DNA from: Candidatus Sphingomonas phytovorans
Lineage (GTDB): Bacteria; Pseudomonadota; Alphaproteobacteria; Sphingomonadales; Sphingomonadaceae
DNA: 64,000 nucleotides
Assembly: GCA_029202385.1 (NCBI GenBank)
Contig: CP119314.1
Coordinates: forward strand, 1,552,501-1,616,500
Reading direction: 5' to 3'
Shown here: positions 6,247-20,061 of the stretch, piece by piece
Position numbering within the stretch: position 1 is the first letter of the stretch
Layout: every line of letters begins with the position of its first letter
Notes under the pieces: model-generated
Told to the model about the DNA's origin: nothing
The model's database searches: none
Seen by the model: only the letters and a program-made list of their open reading frames with translations
Position numbers and translations under genes: made by a program

Positions 6247-6320
6247 ATTTGTGATGGACGGCAATGTGATCGGAACCACACATTTGCTGAATTGTCGGCA
6301 GCGGGCACGCAGGAGGGGTG

Positions 6321-7871
6321 ATGATAGAGCTGGAGACGGCAAGAACCGCCGCGGACGGGCGACTTCGTCGTATTGTCGTCGTCGGCGGCGGAACCTCTGG
6401 CTGGATGACCGCGGCGTCGCTGGGCTGGGCGCTTTCAACGCTCCCGATCGAGATCGTGCTGGTCGAGTCGGAAGAGATCGGAACGGTCGGCGTCGGCGAG
6501 GCCACCGTGCCGCACATCCGCTTTTTCAATCAGCGGCTCGGCATCGATGAGGCCGATTTCATGCGGCGCACCAACGCGACCTTCAAGCTCGGTATCGAAT
6601 TCCGCGACTGGGCACGGATCGGCGACAGCTATATCCATCCGTTCGGCGATTTCGGCCGGGACGTTGCCGGTCTCCCGTTCCACCAGCATTGGCTCCGCCT
6701 GGTGCGCGCGGGCCGTATCGTGCCCGCACTGGAGGCATTTTCCCTGCCGATCCTGGCAGCGCGCGCCAACAGGTTCGCTCCACCCTCCCCCGACCCGTCG
6801 GCGATCGAATCCACCTTCTCCTACGCTTATCAATTCGATGCCGGCCTCTACGCCGCCTATCTTCGCAGCTACGCCGAGCAACGCGGCGTCCGGCGGGTCG
6901 AGGGCAAGATAGGGCCTGTCGGCCAGCACGGCGAAACAGGCTTCGTCCACTCGGTGACGCTCGAAAGCGGCGAAGAGGTCACCGGGGATCTGTTCGTCGA
7001 CTGCTCCGGGTTTCGCGGGCTGCTGATCGAAGGGGCGCTCAAGGCCGGCTATGAAAGCTGGTCCCACTGGCTGCCTTGCGACGCAGCGCTCGCCGTACCC
7101 AGCGCGCATGGCGGCCCCCTGACCCCCTATACAAGCGCGACGGCTCGCGATGCCGGCTGGCAATGGCGCATCCCGCTCCAGCACCGCGTCGGCAACGGGC
7201 ATGTCTTCAGTACCGCCTTCACGGATATCGATTCGGCACGCGATATCCTCATGTCCAATCTCGAGGGCGAGGCACTCGCCGAACCAAGGTTGCTGCGGTT
7301 CGCCACTGGCAAGCGCAGGAGCCAGTGGCTCGGCAACGTCGTCGCGATCGGCCTTGCCGCCGGCTTCCTCGAGCCGCTCGAATCTACCAGCATCCACCTG
7401 ATCCAGCTCGCGATCACCAAGCTGATCGACCTGCTGCCGCTCGACGGCTGGGATCCGCTCGACGCCGCCGAGTTCAACCGGTCGATGGCGGTTGAGTATG
7501 AACGCGTCCGCGACTTCCTGATCCTGCACTATTGCGCGACCGAGCGGACTGACACCGCGTTCTGGAACCATTGCCGCACGATGAGCCTGCCTGAGTCACT
7601 CGTCTACAAGATGGCGGCGTTCCGCGAACGCGGTGTCGTGGTCAAATATCGCGAGGGCATGTTCCTCGAACCAAGCTGGCTCGCGGTCTATTACGGCCAG
7701 CGGGTCGAACCTGGGCGGATCAACCCGCTGGTCGAAGCGCTGCCGATCGACGAGGTCGCGTCCCGCGCCGAAGCGATGGCCAGCGCCTTCCGTGCGGCAG
7801 CCGAGGCGATGCCCGATCACGCAGACTATCTCCACAATCTATGCGGTCAGACCGGGGCGGTGCGCGCATGA
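6321..7871 (+). CDS. tryptophan halogenase family flavoprotein 1
   Basis: A 516-residue member of the flavin-dependent tryptophan halogenase family (PF04820). The start is ATG 6321 with AGGAGG at 6311-6316; the in-frame GTG 6318 is too close to that site. The FAD motif is VVGGGTSGWM (residues 20-29) and the second flavin motif is GVGEATVPHI (57-66). The residue equivalent to catalytic Lys79 of PrnA is K89 (NATFKLG), the hallmark WxWxIP is present (WQWRIP), and the catalytic Glu/Ser pair is E354-S355 in EPLESTSI. It therefore looks competent to form the lysine chloramine intermediate. In Caulobacter and sphingomonads these genes accompany TonB receptors for sugars, and their true substrate is not established. 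It is the first gene of a three-gene operon. Confidence 0.92.
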   Translation: MIELETARTAADGRLRRIVVVGGGTSGWMTAASLGWALSTLPIEIVLVESEEIGTVGVGEATVPHIRFFNQRLGIDEADFMRRTNATFKLGIEFRDWARIGDSYIHPFGDFGRDVAGLPFHQHWLRLVRAGRIVPALEAFSLPILAARANRFAPPSPDPSAIESTFSYAYQFDAGLYAAYLRSYAEQRGVRRVEGKIGPVGQHGETGFVHSVTLESGEEVTGDLFVDCSGFRGLLIEGALKAGYESWSHWLPCDAALAVPSAHGGPLTPYTSATARDAGWQWRIPLQHRVGNGHVFSTAFTDIDSARDILMSNLEGEALAEPRLLRFATGKRRSQWLGNVVAIGLAAGFLEPLESTSIHLIQLAITKLIDLLPLDGWDPLDAAEFNRSMAVEYERVRDFLILHYCATERTDTAFWNHCRTMSLPESLVYKMAAFRERGVVVKYREGMFLEPSWLAVYYGQRVEPGRINPLVEALPIDEVASRAEAMASAFRAAAEAMPDHADYLHNLCGQTGAVRA

Positions 7872-9373
7872 GCGGGAACGACATACGCACCGTCGCGATC
7901 CTCGGCGGCACTGTCGCCGGCTGGATGGCAGCCGCGGCGCTCGCCCGGCGGCTGCCGCACCATCGCTACCGGATCATGGTGGTCCAGACCGACCGCGACG
8001 GTGACGGCCTGGGCGATTTCGGCGCGACACTGACGGCACTGCCATCAATCGCGCCCTTTCATGAATCCATCGGCATCGACGAGAACCTGCTGCTACGCGC
8101 GACGCGGGGCAGCTTTGCGTTGGGCGTCGCCTTCTCCGGCTGGGCCGCAAGCGAAACTACCCATTTCCTGCCGTTCGGCGCGGTCGGCGCCCCGCTCGGA
8201 CCGGTTGCCTTCCATCAGTTGCTGACGCGCCTGCGCCGGGAAGGCCGCGCGGTCAGGGCCGCTGACTATTCGATCGCCGCCATCGCCGCCCAGGCAAGCC
8301 GCTTCGCCCGTCCTTCCACCGACGGGCATGGCGTGCTCTCACACTATGCCTATGGCCTGCATCTCGACACGTCGGCCTATCTCAGAGCGATGCGGACGAC
8401 CGCCGAGGCGCATGGCGCCCACGTTGCGGCCGCCCTTTTCCGCCGCGCCATCATGGACGCCTCGGGCGGGATCGCCGCGCTGGAACTCGAGAATGGCGAT
8501 TCCCTTCCGGCCCTGCTGTTCGTCGATGCCACCGGCACCGATGCGCGCCTGTGCGGCGAGGCGCTGGGAGTGGGTTTCCAGAGCTGGCGACAATGGTTGC
8601 CTTGCGACCACGCCACCGCCAGGCGCATCTTCGATCAGTCCGATCCGTCGCCATTCGGTCATGTCGAGGCGCAGTCGGCCGGCTGGCAGAACGGCACCCC
8701 TTTGGTTGGAGAGGCCGGCCGGTTGCTCTGCTGGAGCAGTGCATTCGGCAATGCGCCGTCCTGCGCCGGGAGCAATGAACCGGTCCACGGAATGGCCTTC
8801 GAAAACGGTCGGCGTATCACACCCTGGCACCGCAACTGTGTCGCGATCGGCGCCGCCGCATGCGTGCTTGAGCCCTTGCACCCGGTCGGGCTCCATCTCG
8901 TCCAGAGCGCGCTCGCCCGGCTCGTCGCCCTTTTCCCCGATACAGCCGAGGCACCGGTGGAAGCGGCCGAATATAACCGGATGACCATCAACGAGATGGA
9001 AAGCGCCCGCGACTTCCTGATCGCCCAATATGTCACGAATGGACGCGTCGGCGAGCCCTTCTGGGATGCGGTCCGGTCCATCGCCTCTCCCGATCGCCTG
9101 TTCTACAAGCTCGCCTTGTTCGCGGGCGGAGGGCGCATGCCGATGTACGATGACGAGGTGTTCGAGGAAGCCGACTGGATCGCGTTGCTCGACGCGCAGG
9201 GAGTACGGCCGCGTCGCCACGACGCACTGGCCGGCATCGTGCCGATCGAACGGATCGAGCAGCATCTTACCCGGCTGCGCGAGGCGATCATCGCCGGCGT
9301 GAAGACCATGCCATCGCATGCCGAGTATCTCAGGCGCGCCCATGCGGCGCCCCCGCGCGGTGCCGCCGCATGA
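7868..9373 (+). CDS. degenerate tryptophan halogenase paralogue 2
   Basis: A 501-residue paralogue of its two neighbours, starting at ATG 7868 in a 4-nt overlap with the preceding stop. Fold landmarks align along the whole length, but the catalytic residues are gone. The PrnA Lys79 position is Ala84 (GSFALG, codon GCG at 8117-8119), and the Glu/Ser pair is H338-P339 (EPLHPVGL). The WxWxIP motif has become GWQNGTPL, the third glycine of the dinucleotide motif is Thr (LGGTVAGWM, 12-20), and the GVGEAT flavin motif is lost. The reading frame is intact, without frameshifts, and has ordinary codon use, so the protein is presumably made. It may be a structural partner of the active paralogues, a flavin reductant shuttle or a binding protein. 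Family membership is certain; function is unknown. Confidence 0.88.
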   Translation: MSGNDIRTVAILGGTVAGWMAAAALARRLPHHRYRIMVVQTDRDGDGLGDFGATLTALPSIAPFHESIGIDENLLLRATRGSFALGVAFSGWAASETTHFLPFGAVGAPLGPVAFHQLLTRLRREGRAVRAADYSIAAIAAQASRFARPSTDGHGVLSHYAYGLHLDTSAYLRAMRTTAEAHGAHVAAALFRRAIMDASGGIAALELENGDSLPALLFVDATGTDARLCGEALGVGFQSWRQWLPCDHATARRIFDQSDPSPFGHVEAQSAGWQNGTPLVGEAGRLLCWSSAFGNAPSCAGSNEPVHGMAFENGRRITPWHRNCVAIGAAACVLEPLHPVGLHLVQSALARLVALFPDTAEAPVEAAEYNRMTINEMESARDFLIAQYVTNGRVGEPFWDAVRSIASPDRLFYKLALFAGGGRMPMYDDEVFEEADWIALLDAQGVRPRRHDALAGIVPIERIEQHLTRLREAIIAGVKTMPSHAEYLRRAHAAPPRGAAA

Positions 9374-10905
9374 GCGCGCCGGTGCCGGTCCGCAGTGTTG
9401 TCATCGTCGGCGGTGGCACTGCCGGCTGGATGGCGGCGACGGCCCTCTCCCGCCTCATCCGCACCGGGGTATCGGTGACGCTGGTCGAATCCGACGCAAT
9501 CGCCACGGTTGGGGTCGGCGAGGCGACGATCCCGCCGATCCGCAACTTCAACGGACTGCTCGGGATCGACGAGAATGACTTCCTCGCGAAGACCAGCGGC
9601 TCGATCAAACTCGGCATCGACTTCGTCGACTGGACGCGCGAAGGGCATCGCTACACGCACCCCTTTGGCGAATTCGGCTTCGATATCGAGGGTGTGAAGT
9701 TCCATCATTTCTGGCGCAAGCTCTACACGGCGGGCCAGGCGAGCTGGATCGAGGACTATAATCTCTGCGCCACCGCGCAGAAGCTCGGCCGCTTCACCCT
9801 GCCAGTCGCCGATCCGGCCTCGGTGCTCTCGCGGCTGACCTATGCCTATCATTTCGACGCATCGCTCTATGCCCTTTATCTGCGCGCCTATGCCGAAGCG
9901 CGAGGCGTGGTACGGATCGAGGGCAAGGTCGAGGACGTCATGCTGCGGAGCATCGACGGGCATGTCGAAGCAATCCGGCTTGAAGGCGACCGCCGAATCG
10001 AGGGCGAATTGTTCGTCGACTGCACCGGTTTTCGCGGGTTGCTGATCGAAGGCGTACTGCAGACCGGGTTCGAATCCTGGAAGCAGTGGCTGCAATGCGA
10101 CCGGGCGGTCGCGGTGCCTTCGGCGAGCCCGGGCCGCGCGATCACGCCTTTCACTCAATCGACCGCGCGTCGCGCCGGCTGGCAATGGCGCATCCCGCTT
10201 CAACACCGCGTCGGCAACGGTTATGTCTATTGCAGCACGGATATCAGCGACGACGAGGCAGCCGCCGCTTTGCTCGCCAACCTTGACGGCGAGCCCCTGC
10301 GCGATCCGATGCTGATCCGGTTCGAGGCCGGCCGGCGCAAGCTGGCATGGAATCGCAACGTGGTCGCGCTCGGCCTTGCCTCCGGCTTTGTCGAGCCGCT
10401 GGAATCGACCAGCATCCACATGATCCAGACTGGCGTGTCGAAGCTGATGGCGCTGTTCCCCGACCGCGGCTTCTCGCCCGTCGAGCGTGACGAATATAAT
10501 CGCCAGACCCAGGTCCAGATGGAGCAGATCCGCGACTTCGTGATCCTGCACTACCACGCCAACGAGCGCACCGAGGGCGACCTGTGGCGCCGCGTGCGCG
10601 ACATGGCAGTCCCCGAGACGCTTGCGCGAAAACTCGATCTGTTCCGCAATCGCGGGCGCTTCTTCCGGTACGACGACGAACTGTTCGCGGATTCGAGCTG
10701 GATCGCGGTCCTGCTTGGCCAGAACGTCATGCCCGCCGGCTGGGACCCGCTGGCCGACGCGGTCGCCCCGGCGCTGGTGCGCCAGCGGCTCGACCGGATC
10801 CGCGAAGTATTCCGTCGCGCCGCCGAGGCGATGCCACGCCATGAGGACTGGGTTGCCCGCAACTGTCCTGCGTTGGGGATTCCTGTTGCAAGAAGGACCG
10901 CGTGA
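9370..10905 (+). CDS. tryptophan halogenase family flavoprotein 3
   Basis: A 511-residue flavin-dependent halogenase-family protein, with ATG 9370 overlapping the preceding stop by 4 nt. All hallmarks are present: VGGGTAGWM (13-21), GVGEATIPPI (48-57), catalytic Lys K80 in GSIKLG, WQWRIPLQHRVGNG, and EPLESTSIHMIQ. It is closely similar to the first gene of the operon (shared AGWQWRIPLQHRVGNG and EPLESTSIH segments), pointing to duplication. A separate flavin reductase would be needed and none is seen nearby. It ends 23 bp from the convergent LytTR gene, with no clear terminator between them. Confidence 0.92.
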   Translation: MSAPVPVRSVVIVGGGTAGWMAATALSRLIRTGVSVTLVESDAIATVGVGEATIPPIRNFNGLLGIDENDFLAKTSGSIKLGIDFVDWTREGHRYTHPFGEFGFDIEGVKFHHFWRKLYTAGQASWIEDYNLCATAQKLGRFTLPVADPASVLSRLTYAYHFDASLYALYLRAYAEARGVVRIEGKVEDVMLRSIDGHVEAIRLEGDRRIEGELFVDCTGFRGLLIEGVLQTGFESWKQWLQCDRAVAVPSASPGRAITPFTQSTARRAGWQWRIPLQHRVGNGYVYCSTDISDDEAAAALLANLDGEPLRDPMLIRFEAGRRKLAWNRNVVALGLASGFVEPLESTSIHMIQTGVSKLMALFPDRGFSPVERDEYNRQTQVQMEQIRDFVILHYHANERTEGDLWRRVRDMAVPETLARKLDLFRNRGRFFRYDDELFADSSWIAVLLGQNVMPAGWDPLADAVAPALVRQRLDRIREVFRRAAEAMPRHEDWVARNCPALGIPVARRTA

Positions 10906-10928: not shown

Positions 10929-12491
10929 TTACCCCGTGGACACCTCGTTCGTCCCTAACAGAGCGACAATGCCCTTCCAGTAGGTACGTCCGATCGGGAG
11001 ACGCGTGCCGCCGGCAAGTTCGATGGTCCGGCCGGTTCTTCCGGCCCGGTGGAGCACCGCGATCTTCTCTTGGTTGACTGCGTGGCTGCGATGGACACGG
11101 AGGAAACTGCCCGGCGCCAGGCGCAGGATCGTCGCGAGATTGATCGTCGCCAGCAACTCCCGCCCATCGACAAGATGGATGACGCTGTAATCGTCGTCCG
11201 CCTGCACATGAAGGATGTCGCGGAGCGCCACGCGTTGCTGCGAGCTCCCATTGGGAATGACGATAAGGTCTTCGCGCTGAGGAGACGCCGGCGCGACGAG
11301 TGTAATGTTTTCGGTGGGGCGCAGCGCCCGGACAGCCAACGGAATCTGCCACGCGAACAGCACGACAAAGATAAGGTAGTAAGTGAAATCGAGGAATTCC
11401 GGGCTTCCCGAAAGGGCCAGTGCGACGATGCAGCCAAGTGCCACCCGACGCGCATGCGCCGCCCCGCGCACCGTACCCGCGGCAGCCGAGACCAGCGCTC
11501 CCGACATGCCGGCGCGAAACGCCCATACCGCTTTTGCATCCCACCATGGCAGGAGCAGGCAGGCGCCCGCCAGCCCCAGCATCACCATCGCGAGGATCGC
11601 GACACGGGTCCGCCACCCGCGCACGAGGGAAAGCGCGGCGGCGGTCACGAGCAGGCCGGCCAGCGTCGCCAATCCGGCCAGCGCAGCCAGCCGCGCGAGT
11701 TGCCAGGGATAGGGATAGGCGAGTGCGAGCTTGCTGGTCTCGATCGCCGCCTGCAGCACTATCGTGCCGGCCAGAATCAGGAAGATCGCCGTGCCGCCGC
11801 CACGCCGGCGCCTGATCAGCCAGAGCAACAGGTTCGCGACAAACGCGAAGAGGAGCAGTCCTATGACGATCAGCGTCGGCAGATAATGGATCACGATGGT
11901 CCTGTCCGCGCCCTCGAACGGCCCGACCGACAGGTGATGGATCGGCCTTGCCACCGGTGCCCAGAGATGCTGCGCGGACAAACGGATCGCGACGATGTTC
12001 GGGCCAGGGCGCACCAGTTCCGGCGGTATCAGGACAACGGCATCGAACTGGCCCGGCGTTTCAAGCGCCCGGCTCTCACCCACCATGCCATTGCGGCCGA
12101 TCAGCACGCCGTTCCAGCGCACCTCGGCACTCGCCATCGCCGTGATGTGGACGGCAAGCGGCATGTCGGATCGTCGGCGAACGCCCGAATAGACGGCCTT
12201 CAGCACGCTCATTTTCCCGGCCAGGGAAAGCGTGGAGACGTCGACCGGCCGGCACCGGTCGGAGGCCGGACAGGAGAACCAGTCGAGCCGCGGCGCCAAC
12301 GCGGCCGGCGCCGGTCCCGGAGTCAGCACTGCTCCCATCAGCGCGGCCAGGCCGGCGACGATGAGGGCGAAGGCAGCGCGATACCCGCGCAGACGTTCAC
12401 CGACTGCGATGGTCGTCCACCGAAAGTTGCTTGGTGCGTCGCGCGGTCCGGCGTCAGGCCCGGGGCTCGCTGATGAAGGGGTCCGCGTCAT
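10929..12491 (-). CDS. membrane-bound LytTR transcriptional regulator
   Basis: A 520-residue protein starting at ATG 12491 with GGAGGAAG upstream. A first transmembrane helix (about 38-58) is followed by a periplasmic beta-rich region (about 70-195; it includes RWNGVLIGRNG and PGPNIVAIRLS, resembling a jelly-roll ligand-binding module). About seven more membrane helices (about 205-395) then lead to a C-terminal LytTR DNA-binding domain (about 415-515) with HVQADDDYSVIHL and SFLRVHRSHAVN. The architecture predicts a one-component sensor that binds DNA directly from the membrane. The ligand is unknown. Its neighbours, the halogenase operon and the serine hydrolase divergent by 59 bp, are candidates for control. 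Confidence 0.85.
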   Translation of the reverse strand: MTRTPSSASPGPDAGPRDAPSNFRWTTIAVGERLRGYRAAFALIVAGLAALMGAVLTPGPAPAALAPRLDWFSCPASDRCRPVDVSTLSLAGKMSVLKAVYSGVRRRSDMPLAVHITAMASAEVRWNGVLIGRNGMVGESRALETPGQFDAVVLIPPELVRPGPNIVAIRLSAQHLWAPVARPIHHLSVGPFEGADRTIVIHYLPTLIVIGLLLFAFVANLLLWLIRRRRGGGTAIFLILAGTIVLQAAIETSKLALAYPYPWQLARLAALAGLATLAGLLVTAAALSLVRGWRTRVAILAMVMLGLAGACLLLPWWDAKAVWAFRAGMSGALVSAAAGTVRGAAHARRVALGCIVALALSGSPEFLDFTYYLIFVVLFAWQIPLAVRALRPTENITLVAPASPQREDLIVIPNGSSQQRVALRDILHVQADDDYSVIHLVDGRELLATINLATILRLAPGSFLRVHRSHAVNQEKIAVLHRAGRTGRTIELAGGTRLPIGRTYWKGIVALLGTNEVSTG

Positions 12492-13700: not shown

Positions 13701-14438
13701 CTATCGCATGAAGAATTCCACGGGCACGACCAGTTCGATCGAAGCGCCCGGCTTGTCAGCCGGTGGCTTGGGCAAGGGCTGTGCCCGTTTCGGCAGGGTG
13801 ACCGCTTCCCGGTCGAGGGCATCGAAACCGGAACTGCGCTCCAGGCGTGACGACAGGACCCTGCCCTCCCTGTCCATCACGAAGCGGACATAGGGCACTC
13901 CCTGCTGGCGACGCGCCATCGCCGAGACCGGATATCGACGATTCTTGTTGAGATGGGCAAGCATCCGCCCCTCCCAGCTATCCGGTGCATTGCTCGACAC
14001 CTGCGGTGCCGGCTGGGCCGGAATCGATCGGGGCGCCGCTGTCTCCGGCTCCTTGGGGCCGGGGTCTACTGGCTTCGGGACCGGGATGGGCACCGGCACA
14101 CTCACATCTGCGGACGCCATCGTACGTTCCACCGGCTCGGCTCTCGGAGGCTCTGGCCGCTGCGCCTTCTTTTCGACCAGCTTCGGATTCTCCTTCGGCG
14201 GCGTTTCAGGCTGCGAGGCGAGCGGCAGCAGGGTCACAACCAATGGTGCGGACGGTGCAGGCAGCGATCGACGATGGTTGAACGTCAGGAAGATGCCTGC
14301 GAGAAATGCTGCACAGATCAGCGCCGTTCCAGCAAGCGCGAAGGCTCGCCGCGAGGCAGGCGGCGCATAGCCGTGACGGTGCGCCAAAGCCTCGCCATCC
14401 GGCATCGCAACCGCTGGGACCCGTTCACCCGGAAACAT
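13701..14438 (-). CDS. tonB: TonB energy transducer
   Basis: A 245-residue TonB protein: a cytoplasmic N-terminus, one transmembrane helix (about 31-52), a Pro/Lys/Glu-rich periplasmic spacer (about 60-150, with PVPIPVPKPVDPGP), and a C-terminal TonB domain (about 155-245) with NRRYPVSAMARRQQG and YVRFVMDREGRVL. It transfers proton-motive force from ExbB-ExbD to receptors. No exbB or exbD is found in the window. The start overlaps the end of the PepSY gene by 14 nt, so it is translationally coupled and is the last gene of the siderophore-uptake operon. It probably serves that receptor specifically. Confidence 0.92.
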   Translation of the reverse strand: MFPGERVPAVAMPDGEALAHRHGYAPPASRRAFALAGTALICAAFLAGIFLTFNHRRSLPAPSAPLVVTLLPLASQPETPPKENPKLVEKKAQRPEPPRAEPVERTMASADVSVPVPIPVPKPVDPGPKEPETAAPRSIPAQPAPQVSSNAPDSWEGRMLAHLNKNRRYPVSAMARRQQGVPYVRFVMDREGRVLSSRLERSSGFDALDREAVTLPKRAQPLPKPPADKPGASIELVVPVEFFMR

Positions 14439-15684
14439 GAACTTCTTTCATCGTGCCGGGCTTGCGTCGTGCCATTCCAGGCGCCCGAGTGCGCGCGCCC
14501 TGCGCGATACGTTTCTTCCACCAGATCGTTATGCCGGTGATCGACAACAACGCCACGACGATGCCGGCGATGCAGATCAGGATGCGCCCCGCAATCCCTG
14601 CGACCTGGCCCGTATGTATCGGGAACATCAGGTCAGCGACCACATCGCCCGCCTTGCCCCCGCCGGCTCGCTCGACGAACAGGATGCGGCCATTCGTGCC
14701 GGAAACGAAAATACTCGAATCGCCGAAGCCGGGTTGATGCTTGCGACCGAAACGAACCATGTAGAGGCCTTGGTCACGCGCGGCATAGACTAGGCTGACC
14801 GGATCGAACCAGCCACGGCGCCTGGCCTCAGCTTGGGCCCTCGCGACAGCGACATCCCAATCTATAATCACAGAGGGCGTTACTGATGGCGCAGGCCTGT
14901 CCCAAATGCTCGGACTGGTTGGCAACAGCGCGGAGAGCGCCGGCCGGAACACCTCGGCGTTGAGGTTCAGGGCGACGCTCGACAATGCAATCAGGAACAG
15001 CACCGGCCATAGCCACAGGCCGGATGCGCGATGAAGATCAAGGTTGAGACGATAGCCGCCCGCGCCGCGCTTGATGCGCCATATCGGCCGCCATTTGGTC
15101 CAGAACGGTCCCCCGCGGGGCAAGGTGAGATAAAAGCCGAGGAAGCAATCCAGCATCCACGCGAGCGCTACGCCGCCCATCAGCCAGCTTCCCCAGATAC
15201 CCGGCAGGTGCAGCGAATAATGGAGCGTGTAGAGAAATGGCATCAGGTGAGCGCGATCCAGCCGTGCCGCACCGCGCAACCGACGCCCGAGGATCGCACC
15301 ATCCGCAGGGTCAACGAATATCTGGTTGTAGGCGGGTGCCTTCTGCGCTCCCGGTCGCTGACCGACATATAGGCTGACGCTCTCGCCCGGTGCGGCAGGG
15401 AGAACGATACTCGATACCGCCACGGTCGGATCAGCCCGCTCGATCCGCTCGACGATCCGTGACGGGGAAAAGGCCGGTCCCGAGACCTGCTCGACATGGA
15501 ACAGGCTCGGGTTGAGCCAGGCGTCCAGTTCGGACTGGAATGCAAGCAGACTGCCGGTCAACCCGGCGATGATGAGGAAACCGGCCATCGCCAGCCCCAC
15601 ATAACGATGCAATGCCACCAGCAACGGCCGGGCACGTGCTGCACCGCCGCTGCTGCGGGCCCGATGAACGGCGGACGTTGCCAC
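14425..15684 (-). CDS. PepSY-associated membrane protein (siderophore reduction)
   Basis: A 419-residue inner-membrane protein of the PepSY_TM family with four transmembrane segments (about 25-50, 150-180, 210-235, 365-390). Conserved histidines near the membrane (LHRYVGLAMAG, LHYSLHLPG, DLHRASGLWL, FPIHTGQVAG) resemble haem-binding positions of FoxB/PiuB-type proteins. Relatives reduce ferric siderophores in the periplasm to release iron. It lies 12 bp after the siderophore receptor and overlaps tonB by 14 nt, which fits that role. The biochemical step is inferred from family and context. Confidence 0.88.
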   Translation of the reverse strand: MATSAVHRARSSGGAARARPLLVALHRYVGLAMAGFLIIAGLTGSLLAFQSELDAWLNPSLFHVEQVSGPAFSPSRIVERIERADPTVAVSSIVLPAAPGESVSLYVGQRPGAQKAPAYNQIFVDPADGAILGRRLRGAARLDRAHLMPFLYTLHYSLHLPGIWGSWLMGGVALAWMLDCFLGFYLTLPRGGPFWTKWRPIWRIKRGAGGYRLNLDLHRASGLWLWPVLFLIALSSVALNLNAEVFRPALSALLPTSPSIWDRPAPSVTPSVIIDWDVAVARAQAEARRRGWFDPVSLVYAARDQGLYMVRFGRKHQPGFGDSSIFVSGTNGRILFVERAGGGKAGDVVADLMFPIHTGQVAGIAGRILICIAGIVVALLSITGITIWWKKRIAQGARTRAPGMARRKPGTMKEVHVSG

Positions 15685-15696
15685 GAAACGGATCGA

Positions 15697-18243
15697 TCAG
15701 AACCGGTAACGCAGGCGGGCCCATGCGTTGCGCGGGTCGCCGTAAGTGAAGCCGTTGTAGGCGCCCAGACCGGAGTAATAACTCTTGTCAGTCACGTTAT
15801 CGACGTTGACGGACACACTCCACTGCTCGCTTATCCGATAGCTGGCGTTGAGATCGATCAGCACGAACCCGCCTTGGCGCACCCGGCCCAAGCCGTAGAG
15901 TTCATCATAATAGATGCCGCTCTGGTACCGGACGCTGCCACCCACAGTGATCGCGCTGAGCGGTCCCGGAAGAGCATAGCTGCTGTTGGCGCGGAAAAGA
16001 TGGCGAGGATATTGGGTGTTCAGCAGCGCACCGTCCTGATCGCGCTTCTCGCTATAGGTATAGCCTGCCGAGACATTCCAGCCCGCCACAACCTCGCCCG
16101 CGACAGTGACCTCCACGCCCTTGCTCCGCGCGCCTTCTACCGCACGATAGGGCTGGCTGCCGTCGGGCAACAAGACGCCGCTGTCGTCAAGCACCGGGAG
16201 ATTGTCTTCGACAATGCGGAACAGAGCGATCGACGTGTTGAGACGGCCGCCGAAATGCTCTCCCTTCAGCCCGATCTCGATATTACCGCCCCGGCGTGGC
16301 GCAATAATGCTGTTGCGACTGTCTCGCTCGCTGTTGGGCTGGAAGATGCTGGTATAGCTGGCGTAAGCGGAAATCTGGCTGGAAAGGTCGAAAATCGCGC
16401 CGGCATAGGGCGTGAAAACGCCATCCTCTCTCACGCCGCCGATATCGACATATTCAAGGCTTCCGCCGGCGCCGGCCGATCCGCTCCAGCTATTGTTCCT
16501 GTAGCGGGTGAGGCGACCGCCAAGCAGGATCGACAAGCGCGCCACCGGTTTCACGCGCAGCGACCCATAAATGGCCGTCTCTTGTATTTCGCCCCGCAAT
16601 CCGCTGATCGGATAGATGAAGTCTCGCGGTGCTATCGTCCGCATGTCGAATATATCGTGCTTCGGGATGAAATCGTAAAAGCCGGGTCTCAGGAAAATGC
16701 CGCCTTCATTTCCGCGAAGTGACGACAATCGTGTCAGGTTGAAGTCGTAACGATTCACATTGGCCCCGATCACGATCCGATCATCGGCGCTGAAAATGCC
16801 AAGCGGTCCGGTCGCGTGGATATCGAAGGATTTGTTCGTACTCCGCGCCGGGTTCCCGAAAAGCGTTATCAGGCTCAGATTGTCGGTGGCCTCGATGTCG
16901 CTCGGATAGGAAGACACGTCCGCACCGGCCCGCTCGCGCTCATTGCGGACATAGCCGGCGTCAGCCTTCACCTGCCAGTCGTTGGCGAACCGATGTTCCA
17001 GCGTGACGAACGCCCGCTTCGTGGTCATGTCCCAAAACGACCAGGGCGCCGACAAATTGTAGGAGCGCGGAATAGGAATACGGGTACCATCATTGTAGAA
17101 GAGCGGATTCTGACCGAAATTGGCGCCCTTGATCGCTGTCTTCTGATATTCACCGCCAATCGACAGGACCGTCTCGGGCGTGATGTCGGCTTCGACGATG
17201 CCGTAGAGGACATCCTCCCGCTGGCTCCTGTCGTCGATGAAGCTGTCGCCGGCACGGTGCTGGCCCGACAGCCGAACCCGCAACGCGCCGTTCGCCGCGA
17301 CCGGCCCGCCGATATCCCCTTCGATCGTGTAGCGACTCCATGAGCCGACCCCGACATTGAGATAGCCGGCAACAGTATCGCCCGGTCGCTTGCGGATGAG
17401 ATTGATCGAACCGCCGGGTGACCCGACGCCGTTGAGCAACCCGGCCGCGCCGCGAAGTACTTCGACCCGATCATAGATCACCGTGCTGATCATGCTGACC
17501 TCGCCCGCCACCGACTGAAAGGCCAGGGTCGGTACGCCGTCGATCATCGGGCTCAGGTCAAAACCGCGTGAGGTGAAATAAACGCGCTCGTCGCTCCGAT
17601 CGACGACGATACCGGGTGTCTGTTCCAGGACATCGTTGAGTGTGAGGAGATTCAGATCCTCGATCTGCTGGCGGGTGACCACGCTCACAGATTGCGGCGT
17701 CTCGCGCAGGGAGAGTGGCATTCGAGTGGCGGTGCTGGTCGAGCGCGTCGTGTAGGAGCCGGTGCCTTCCGTCTTCCCCGGATCGCGCCAGGTGGCATTG
17801 ACCGCGTAGGGACCTGCATTCCCGCTTTCTCCCTCGACCCGCACCGGACCCAGTTGGATCGCGCCATCCGATGTCTGCGGAGCTTTCTCCAGCGCCACCG
17901 TCCGACTGTTGATCGACCGCCAGGTCAAACCCGTTCCAGCCAGGAGTCGGCCAAGCGCCTCATGCGGCGCGAAGGCCCCTAGGACAGGCTGCGACTGCAA
18001 CCCGGCCAGCAACGCCGTGTCGACCGTCACCTGCATGTCGCCTTGATCGCCGAACGCCGTAAGCGCTGACGCAAGCGGTTGGGCCGGAATGTCGAAGCTG
18101 CGCGTCCCTGCCCTGTTCGAACGCTCCGGTTGCTGCGCATCTGCGGCCGTCAGACCGACAAAAGCGGTGATCACGGCCGATGCCATTAGCAGCGCACCCG
18201 TCGAACGGCGCGCACGCCTCCCCAAATCCCCCGAATTCCTCAC
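15697..18243 (-). CDS. TonB-dependent siderophore receptor with STN signalling domain
   Basis: An 848-residue FpvA/FecA-type receptor. The signal peptide is about residues 1-36. An STN domain (about 48-113; SFDIPAQPLASALTAFGDQ, LLAGTGLTWRS) lets the receptor signal to FecR. The plug (about 165-285) has SLRETPQSVSVVTRQQIED and VYFTSRGFDLSPMIDG, typical of ferric-siderophore receptors, and the barrel ends in WARLRYRF. ECF sigma and FecR genes upstream complete a cell-surface signalling system. The siderophore itself cannot be named. An inverted repeat lies in its upstream region (18272-18298). Confidence 0.94.
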   Translation of the reverse strand: MRNSGDLGRRARRSTGALLMASAVITAFVGLTAADAQQPERSNRAGTRSFDIPAQPLASALTAFGDQGDMQVTVDTALLAGLQSQPVLGAFAPHEALGRLLAGTGLTWRSINSRTVALEKAPQTSDGAIQLGPVRVEGESGNAGPYAVNATWRDPGKTEGTGSYTTRSTSTATRMPLSLRETPQSVSVVTRQQIEDLNLLTLNDVLEQTPGIVVDRSDERVYFTSRGFDLSPMIDGVPTLAFQSVAGEVSMISTVIYDRVEVLRGAAGLLNGVGSPGGSINLIRKRPGDTVAGYLNVGVGSWSRYTIEGDIGGPVAANGALRVRLSGQHRAGDSFIDDRSQREDVLYGIVEADITPETVLSIGGEYQKTAIKGANFGQNPLFYNDGTRIPIPRSYNLSAPWSFWDMTTKRAFVTLEHRFANDWQVKADAGYVRNERERAGADVSSYPSDIEATDNLSLITLFGNPARSTNKSFDIHATGPLGIFSADDRIVIGANVNRYDFNLTRLSSLRGNEGGIFLRPGFYDFIPKHDIFDMRTIAPRDFIYPISGLRGEIQETAIYGSLRVKPVARLSILLGGRLTRYRNNSWSGSAGAGGSLEYVDIGGVREDGVFTPYAGAIFDLSSQISAYASYTSIFQPNSERDSRNSIIAPRRGGNIEIGLKGEHFGGRLNTSIALFRIVEDNLPVLDDSGVLLPDGSQPYRAVEGARSKGVEVTVAGEVVAGWNVSAGYTYSEKRDQDGALLNTQYPRHLFRANSSYALPGPLSAITVGGSVRYQSGIYYDELYGLGRVRQGGFVLIDLNASYRISEQWSVSVNVDNVTDKSYYSGLGAYNGFTYGDPRNAWARLRYRF

Positions 18244-18271
18244 TTGTCAGCCCTTCCGTCATCACGACATT

Positions 18272-18298
18272 TCTTGCTAGCGGTTTGCATTAGCAAGA
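18272..18298. promoter_or_regulatory. 8-bp inverted repeat upstream of siderophore receptor
   Basis: TCTTGCTA (18272-18279) and TAGCAAGA (18291-18298) form a perfect 8-bp inverted repeat with 11-bp spacing, 29 bp before the receptor ATG in the gap between fecR and the receptor gene. The enclosed sequence includes TTTGCATTAGC, which has some resemblance to alphaproteobacterial iron-regulatory sites. It may be an operator or the ECF-sigma promoter region. Confidence 0.45.
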
Positions 18299-18371
18299 GA
18301 TCAGAGAGGAGACGGATGGGCGCGGCAAATCTTCAACGCCGTGCAAAAAAACTTTGAACGCGATGCGACCT

Positions 18372-19382
18372 TCAGGATGCGGAGACGAATATCAGCCATG
18401 GCGACACGCTGCGGACCCTGCCCGCGTGCGGCGCGACGACCGTCCGTAACGCCTCGACCGGATCGCGGACATCAAAGGCACCGGTCACACGACGATTGGC
18501 CAGTTCGCCGTCCGTGACGACGATCAAGCCGGCATAATAGGGTCGGAGTTGATCGACGATATCTGCTATCGTCGCGCCTTCAGTCAGCAGCTTGCCCCGC
18601 CGCCAGGGCGCGATGCTGCCGATCGCTACCACGCTGGAACTGGCCCGCCGTGCGCGACGATCGAACTGAAAATGATCGCCCGGGCGCATGACGCTCTCGC
18701 CCCGCACGTCGCCATGTGGATAAGTGGTCCGCACCGCCCCCTCGGCCAGCATTACGTCGACGACGCGATCCGTCATGCCGACGTCGAACTGCGTGCCCGT
18801 GACCGTCACTGTCACGTCCTCCGCCGTGACGTGGAAAGGTCTGGCCGGATCGTGCGCGACCTGGAAATAGGCACGACCTGCGAGCAATTTGACGCCGCGT
18901 CTGTTTGCACCGCCGTCGAGGGCGATGGCAGTACCGGTGTCGAGTTGCACCCTCGAACCGTCCGCCAGCGTCACCGTCCGGCTTTCGCCCGTCGCAGTCC
19001 GATAGTCCGCCTGCATTCTCAATTGGACCGACGGCGCGACGACGAGGGCGAGGCAAGCAGCCGCGGCGAGCGCCACGATACCCCACCGCCGGGCGGCGCG
19101 CGCAGGCCTGCCCCGGGTATGGCGTCTCACGTCCCTTGAACGAAAAACGGCTTGCTCTGCACCGAGCAGGCCCGTCAGCAACCAGACCTTTTCAGCAGCG
19201 GCCCAGGCCCGGGCGTGGTGCTCGCTACGATTCTTCCAGGCCACGACGTCCGTTGCCAGCGCCCTGTCGTCCGGCGTGGCTTTCAATCGAAGCAGCAGCT
19301 CCGCTGCCTCATCGAGCAGCGGATCGCGCGATGACGCCAACGGTGTGGCATCGCCGGATTGCGATGGTGGTTTGTGCGGCAC
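18372..19382 (-). CDS. fecR: FecR-type anti-sigma/sigma regulator
   Basis: A 336-residue FecR protein. A DUF4880-type cytoplasmic N-terminus (ATDVVAWKNRSEHHARAWAA) contacts the sigma factor, one transmembrane helix (about residues 98-118) follows, then the periplasmic FecR domain (YRTATGESRTVTLADGSRVQLDTGTAI) and a C-terminal STN-like segment. I place the start at GTG 19382, which has GGAGCAGG upstream; an earlier TTG at 19457 adds 25 residues without family character. It senses ligand-loaded receptor through the STN domain of the 15.7-18.2 kb gene and controls the adjacent ECF sigma factor. Confidence 0.88.
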   Translation of the reverse strand: MPHKPPSQSGDATPLASSRDPLLDEAAELLLRLKATPDDRALATDVVAWKNRSEHHARAWAAAEKVWLLTGLLGAEQAVFRSRDVRRHTRGRPARAARRWGIVALAAAACLALVVAPSVQLRMQADYRTATGESRTVTLADGSRVQLDTGTAIALDGGANRRGVKLLAGRAYFQVAHDPARPFHVTAEDVTVTVTGTQFDVGMTDRVVDVMLAEGAVRTTYPHGDVRGESVMRPGDHFQFDRRARRASSSVVAIGSIAPWRRGKLLTEGATIADIVDQLRPYYAGLIVVTDGELANRRVTGAFDVRDPVEALRTVVAPHAGRVRSVSPWLIFVSAS

Positions 19383-19482
19383 TGGTTCGCCTGCTCCCCG
19401 ATCCCCCTGATTCAACGGTGCCACCGCCTGCAGGAGTAAGACGTTCGAGCAGTGCAAATCTTCAAACGCGGCATGATGCCAG

Positions 19483-19998
19483 TCACGATCCGCTGTCCAT
19501 CAGACGCTGCATGCAATGGGCTACCGCGTTACTGACAAGATTGTGCGCCGTCCCCTGCGAGATACCGAGCGAGCGTGCGATCTCACTATAAGTCTTGTCG
19601 TGGAACCGGTGCATCTCGAACGCGCGGCGCGCGCGTTCCGGCAACTCCTCCAGCGCCTTGAGCACCACGTTCAATTCATCGCGCTGTACAGCACAGGCTT
19701 CGGGATCGGCGCTCGCCGCTGGGGCAAGCGAGAGAATGGCGTCGGCCTCCTCGCCGCGCATCTCCGGCGCCAGGCGCCGCGAGACGTCGATCGCGAGGTT
19801 ACGCACGACGCGATAGAGATAGGAGACTGGTTGAGCGATACCGCTCCGCTGTTCGATCGAAGCGCCCGTGAAGCGAAGCCATGCCTCCTGGACCACATCC
19901 TCCGCGCGCTCCCGATCGCCAACAATCGGCGCGGCATAGTCGATAAGGGCGTTGCGGTGGCTGAGATAGAGATCGAGCTGGTGGCGTGCTTCTTTCAC
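19483..19998 (-). CDS. fecI: ECF RNA polymerase sigma factor, FecI-like
   Basis: A 171-residue ECF sigma factor with region 2 (YAAPIVGDRERAEDVVQEAWLRF), typical of FecI, and region 4 (ALEELPERARRAFEMHRFHDKTYSEIARSLGIS). The GTG 19998 start has GAGGGAG upstream and gives the usual FecI N-terminus; a TTG at 20046 is in frame but has no ribosome site. It is the first gene of the iron-uptake operon and is followed by fecR. It should transcribe the receptor gene when the receptor-FecR relay is triggered. A Fur-box-like palindrome lies upstream, indicating iron repression. Confidence 0.9.
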   Translation of the reverse strand: MKEARHQLDLYLSHRNALIDYAAPIVGDRERAEDVVQEAWLRFTGASIEQRSGIAQPVSYLYRVVRNLAIDVSRRLAPEMRGEEADAILSLAPAASADPEACAVQRDELNVVLKALEELPERARRAFEMHRFHDKTYSEIARSLGISQGTAHNLVSNAVAHCMQRLMDSGS

Positions 19999-20061
19999 TG
20001 CTCCCTCGATCCATTCGAGCCACGACGCGGCAGGCCCTGTGGCCAAACCGGCGCCGCCCTA

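Follow-up and report, generated by a model that had tools for sequence, protein, structure and literature searches.

A halogenase paralogue without catalytic residues, probably a non-catalytic partner of the intact halogenase encoded directly upstream

In the 64,000-nucleotide stretch of Candidatus Sphingomonas phytovorans DNA analysed here (the window), three genes of the halogenase family PF04820 lie in tandem on the forward strand. The first, H1 (6318..7871 (+)), encodes an intact halogenase of the partner type (622.7 bits to PF04820); its start is listed as GTG at 6318, with an ATG next at 6321. The third, H3 (9370..10905 (+)), encodes an intact, BrvH-like halogenase (637.1 bits to PF04820 and 530.9 bits to 6frl). 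Both retain all of the motifs GGGT, GVGEAT, KLGI, WQWRIP, and EPLESTS. Between them lies the degenerate paralogue psi (7868..9373 (+)), an intact frame of 501 amino acids that scores 343.3 bits to PF04820 over residues 9-457 against a gathering score of 21, a likeness which, judged by this score, is beyond chance. As the preliminary description had claimed, psi stands between two intact halogenases and is coupled to both by 4-nt overlaps; the sequence reads ATGA at each, at 7868..7871 (+) and 9370..9373 (+). Antisense open reading frames over psi are taken as chance frames in GC-rich DNA. Divergent from this operon is a gene for a TonB-dependent receptor of the TonB-Xanth-Caul type (TIGR01782; 2877..6110 (-)), with 703.4 bits in NCBIfam against a cut-off of 310 and with Pfam barrel and plug domains.

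Several other genes surround the operon. A LytTR DNA-binding protein with a long hydrophobic part recognised by eye (10929-12491 (-)) is encoded convergently with it, and farther on (13701-20046 (-)) lie genes for a TonB-like protein (by eye), a PepSY_TM protein, and a TonB-dependent siderophore receptor with an STN domain (TIGR01783, above cut-off), followed by FecR-like and sigma-factor-like frames (by eye); this set looks like an iron uptake system. The genome contains 11 PF04820 genes, and a second degenerate halogenase is found at C1:743310-744674 (= L064:8194-9693(-)), with an intact one directly upstream and a TonB receptor beside it.

Flavin-dependent halogenases use Lys, Glu, and Ser as catalytic residues. 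We located the corresponding positions in psi through its alignment to BrvH (6frl) and through the motif positions of the intact neighbours rather than letter by letter against PrnA; the Lys position is the one which we take to be Lys79 in PrnA numbering. The Lys is replaced by Ala84, with TCKLGI of BrvH aligned to SFALGV, and the Glu-Ser pair by His338-Pro339, with EPLESTS of BrvH aligned to EPLHPVG. The motif GWQWGIPL of BrvH, GWQWRIPL in the neighbours, reads GWQNGTPL in psi, so that the second Trp and the Ile are lost while the first Trp and the Pro are retained. The first flavin motif is GGTVAGW instead of the GGGTAGW of the intact proteins, with Thr in place of the central Gly of GxGxxG and the first and last Gly retained; no GVGEAT was found in psi by comparison of motif positions, and the Glu after strand 2, which we count as an FAD-binding residue, is Gln (VVQTD). 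The loss of the catalytic residues and the alteration of the flavin motifs in a full-length paralogue, both noted in the preliminary description, are thus borne out: psi lacks the catalytic Lys, the Glu-Ser pair, and the intact FAD motifs GxGxxG and GVGEAT of a flavin-dependent halogenase enzyme. A Lys hidden by misalignment is ruled out since the only lysines of psi are residues 414 and 479, which no realignment can bring into the active site.

Despite these losses, psi is confidently predicted to retain the halogenase fold. The AlphaFold2 model, made from 38 aligned sequences, has a pLDDT of 92.9 and a pTM of 0.92, and its closest PDB structure by Foldseek is BrvH (6frl; TM 0.91). Even a short psi of 371 amino acids (L121), from whose sequence the WxWxIP sheet is missing, is modelled with a pLDDT of 91.4 and has BrvH as its top match (TM 0.84 by query). 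A set of 46 intact proteins has 124 near-invariant positions; at least 80% of 23 psi proteins retain 46 of these, and the other 78, among which are the FAD and catalytic motifs, are not retained to that extent. The same comparison gives 22 residues with psi-specific conservation. Across 88 psi-H1 pairs, the region that has diverged most relative to H1 is that of the WxWxIP sheet (ratio 0.23), which presumably adjoins the substrate site, and identity within psi is highest at residues 421-460 (0.31).

The distribution of psi was followed in genome searches with psi as query (61 genomes) and with H1 as query (61 genomes of the genus), and 76 stretches (L042-L117) were taken from among the matches listed, including six that belong to the genome of the window itself. 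H1 was also used at the level of the order (147 genomes) and the phylum (299 genomes), and two H1 relatives were searched against two families from other classes, with 79 and 81 genomes; these gave L120-L139 and L148-L187, of which L148-L181 (34 stretches) represent the two other-class families. A typing of 194 family members in L042-L119, two fragments in L043 being omitted, gave 152 with K-E-S or K-E-A and 42 without, none of the 42 keeping the Lys; an intact gene immediately precedes 41 of them, and 36 have one on either side. The full census covered 138 stretches (L042-L139 and L148-L187; seven fragments omitted and the window triplet excluded) and counted a protein as intact when Lys, Glu, Ser or Ala, and GE were all present. 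It comprises 356 family members, 268 intact and 88 degenerate, and 61 of the 88 have none of the four marks. An intact halogenase lies directly upstream of 87 of the 88 degenerate genes, and 74 are flanked by two. The lone exception (L119:610-2088(-)), which reads TMRLGA and EPIEAGEL, stands beside a DUF6445 gene. The gap between H1 and psi is at most 30 nt in 85 of the 87 pairs and exactly -4 in 45. In 13 of the 87 pairs (e.g. L064, L095, L102, L137, and L187) psi has no intact gene directly downstream, L043 being counted here owing to its dropped fragment.

These counts carry a selection bias in that L042-L077 were chosen mostly through the psi query. Stretches added later were retrieved with H1 as query, which allowed H1-like genes lacking psi to turn up; in L078-L117, psi is present in 18 of 40 stretches, and in the other 22 the H1 clade is not represented. 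For L120-L139 and the final six stretches, sites with a gap between hits were preferred, so that these are not a random sample. H1, psi, and in most cases H3 are found again in L120-L139 and L148-L187, and the range of the H1-psi pair covers two families of the order to which the window belongs as well as Niveispirillum and other classes. In three genera (L120-L122) psi is only 337-371 amino acids long, and in some stretches it is barely recognisable; the scores of psi in L121 (105.7 bits) and L129 (46.4 bits) still exceed the Pfam cut-off of 21. Among named relatives, the corresponding position is occupied in Sphingomonas sp. QA11 (NZ_CP098774.1; 93%) and in the metagenome-assembled genome RYN_525 (NZ_JAQGLC010000047.1; 76%). 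Outside the census, the arrangement occurs on plasmids of Sphingomonas parapaucimobilis (NZ_CP155753.1) and Niveispirillum cyanobacteriorum (NZ_CP025614.1; Rhodospirillales). Judged by annotation, plasmid stretches from Novosphingobium (one) and Catenovulum (two) carry one or two halogenases each and no triplet. In S. parapaucimobilis H3 is annotated in two pieces. The loci at which H3 appears in pieces are L043:7982-10043, L164:7221-10261, and L188:6977-8721, and at L164 so is psi, through either a real break or an assembly error.

The preliminary description had suggested looking in other sphingomonads for the same triplet with the same Lys-to-Ala change. The triplet does recur, but the change to Ala is one among several: among 89 degenerate proteins the Lys position holds Arg in 31, Ser in 16, Ala in 12, and Lys in 6, so that Ala is ruled out as a fixed signature. 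The six that keep Lys lack both Glu and Ser and all belong to the two other-class families. Some replacements are shared within sublineages, such as Arg for Lys, and HP, EW, or DF for ES, as would be expected of a rebuilt active site that catalyses a different reaction; since the replacements vary between lineages and one lineage has lost the whole WxWxIP sheet, we consider such a reaction very unlikely. Another reading is that psi binds reduced flavin and acts as its carrier or reserve for H1 and H3. Of the 89 psi proteins, 86 keep the first Gly of GxGxxG, 65 the middle one, 38 the last, and 16 the Glu after strand 2, and because of this Glu and the first two Gly, FAD binding may persist in some lineages. 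However, the Glu is missing in the other 73, and the psi of the window has Thr for the middle Gly, Gln for the Glu, and no GVGEAT, which makes a flavin carrier quite unlikely.

The concern that psi might be unique to this strain does not hold, since QA11, RYN_525, and 85 further H1-type genes have it, and the recurrence of a similar dead gene after the same kind of intact halogenase in the related bacteria examined points to a non-catalytic partner kept over a long time, not to a copy in decay. Under the MGK+F3X4 codon model with 16 species, omega is 0.105 for H1, 0.163 for psi, and 0.104 for H3. Fixing omega of psi at 1 under the MG model lowers the log likelihood from -15077.6 to -16027.0, at a cost of 949 log units. 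Pairwise omega against QA11 is 0.099 (H1), 0.463 (psi), and 0.180 (H3), and against RYN_525 0.100 (H1), 0.163 (psi; 0.162 in the bootstrap run), and 0.143 (H3). Bootstrap values for psi range from 0.27 to 0.80 against QA11 and from 0.12 to 0.21 against RYN_525, and none of 199 replicates reaches 1 in either pair. Thus psi is under purifying selection, and the relaxed selection (dN/dS near 1) that would have spoken against its retention is absent. A functionless decaying duplicate would be consistent with the fact that psi evolves fastest of the three (at 21 loci its mean protein distance is about twice that of H1), with the omega of 0.46 in the closest pair, and with the split psi of L164. Against it stand the omega over 16 species, the bootstraps of both pairs, and the long reading frames that persist in other members of the order and in other classes, and we regard it as extremely unlikely; a decaying copy unique to this strain is ruled out by synteny, omega, and breadth. 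With strain-uniqueness, relaxed selection, and an alignable Lys all absent, the retention of psi as a non-catalytic protein is well supported.

The linkage of psi is to H1 above all. In a tree of 256 intact proteins, from which 12 EG-type rows and two L053 rows were left out, the 87 psi-followed genes and H1 of the window, together with two more, form one clade of 90 (local support 98), and none of the 166 proteins outside it has psi downstream. The two additional members are no real exceptions to this constant association, since the psi of L156 is cut by the contig end and that of L164 is in two pieces. An IQ-TREE mixture tree of 179 rows likewise has psi with 51 of 51 rows inside the H1 group and with 0 of 128 outside (SH-aLRT 82); 14 rows had been dropped from it, as had the 14 from the larger tree, because FastTree gave a less clean result when the long-branched EG-type halogenases were included, with 13 rows that lack psi placed among the 51 of the H1 group. 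These EG-type proteins (GVGEG, KQG, WDIGL, and EPLEATG) occur in a tandem of their own, composed of a TonB receptor, the EG-type halogenase, and an H3-like one, without a degenerate copy (L096, L100, L103, L104, L109, L111, L113, and L115). An array at L173:2666-10195(+) has the order H1-psi-H1-psi-H3, each psi following its own H1. The single clade, this double pair, and the 13 pairs in which no intact gene comes next all assign psi to H1. In mirror-tree comparisons of 21 loci, the partial correlation of psi with H1 given H3 is 0.77 and that with H3 given H1 is -0.04; the preference for H1 is smaller in 75 triplets (0.47 vs 0.13) and nearly gone among close relatives (0.49 vs 0.44). An equal tie of psi to H1 and H3 is therefore disfavoured by linkage, although the mirror-tree signal is clear only in the 21 loci and unclear in the larger set. 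We do not claim a single origin of psi, since long branches meet in the quick tree (92 rows; psi clade 22/22).

Of the 87 H1-psi pairs, 72 have a TonB receptor gene no more than 1 kb upstream of H1, 38 of them divergently and 34 on the same strand, and none was found within this distance in the other 15. At 51 H1-psi loci the recurrent neighbour clusters, each named from one example, include cupin_8 (20 loci), GH9 (11), GH3 (11), LacI (7), GH10 (5), DUF6445 (4), ROK (4), and GMC oxidoreductase (4); four more, at 21, 14, 4, and 4 loci, may be antisense frames. This setting points to polysaccharide use, and no glycoside hydrolase was found by Pfam among the ten window proteins scanned. The presence of glycoside hydrolases at related loci, the purifying selection on a protein whose active site is gone, and the psi-specific conservation near the C-terminus (P425, E430, R449, and R450) would also fit a neofunctionalised protein that acts on its own, binding a glycan, a peptide, or the halogenated product with neither FAD nor any lasting association with H1. 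Yet the WxWxIP sheet, which presumably lies by the substrate site, is lost in the shortest psi proteins and most diverged overall, and psi is strictly adjacent to one H1 clade; we consider this reading unlikely.

The reading that we favour, as somewhat more probable than its alternatives taken together, is that psi is a dedicated non-catalytic partner of the upstream H1, a pseudo-halogenase which in a hetero-oligomer aids stability or the handling of a large substrate. In this view psi, which by prediction keeps the fold with the Lys, the Glu, the Ser, and much of the grip on FAD lost, may take the place of one copy of a halogenase homodimer to give a hetero-oligomer with H1. Coupled translation would yield H1 and psi in proportion, and psi could stabilise H1 or assist it with the binding or positioning of a large substrate. 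This substrate would probably be a glycan, or else a protein that handles glycans at the TonB-receptor locus, the chemistry being left to H1 (and H3). Operon linkage is in itself no proof of contact, and the physical complex is something that we infer; psi would be a subunit, probably FAD-free, for the H1 of a TonB-receptor operon. More tentatively, the whole clade of TonB-receptor-linked halogenases may work only as a heteromer with FAD-free psi, across several proteobacterial classes and in polysaccharide settings, psi enabling the halogenation or oxidation of large glycan or protein substrates. However, psi is so diverged in remote lineages that a single common binding surface is hard to discern; at least 75% of 88 psi proteins agree at 31 positions, with many Gly, Pro, Trp, and Asn among them. 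If H1-type enzymes should seem inactive or unspecific when produced without psi, a fixed pseudo-subunit for their clade would offer a possible reason. Names may mislead as well, since the record 'tryptophan 7-halogenase' (WP_102115330.1, Niveispirillum) stands for a protein without catalytic residues.

Among known proteins, psi most resembles in fold the intact PF04820 halogenases BrvH of Brevundimonas (6frl) and Xcc4156 (6y1w), with a TM of 0.91 and 34% and 33% identity, respectively (Foldseek), and the alignment with BrvH spans nearly the full length. Unlike psi, both retain the Lys, the Glu-Ser of EPxES, VGEAT, and the Trp motif. At many of the loci examined, halogenases of their type have a TonB receptor as a neighbour; to our knowledge their natural substrate is not known. 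PrnA, RebH, and PyrH share family and fold with psi (TM by query 0.84-0.88), but the catalytic Lys and Glu are missing in psi, and the settings differ: PrnA and RebH are set in antibiotic clusters, whereas psi is found with a TonB receptor and, at related loci, glycoside hydrolases. In enzyme-pseudoenzyme pairs a gene has been duplicated, the active site of one copy has been lost, and both copies are retained side by side. We know of no such pair among flavin-dependent halogenases; H1 and psi, as adjacent copies of which one lacks the active site, resemble one.
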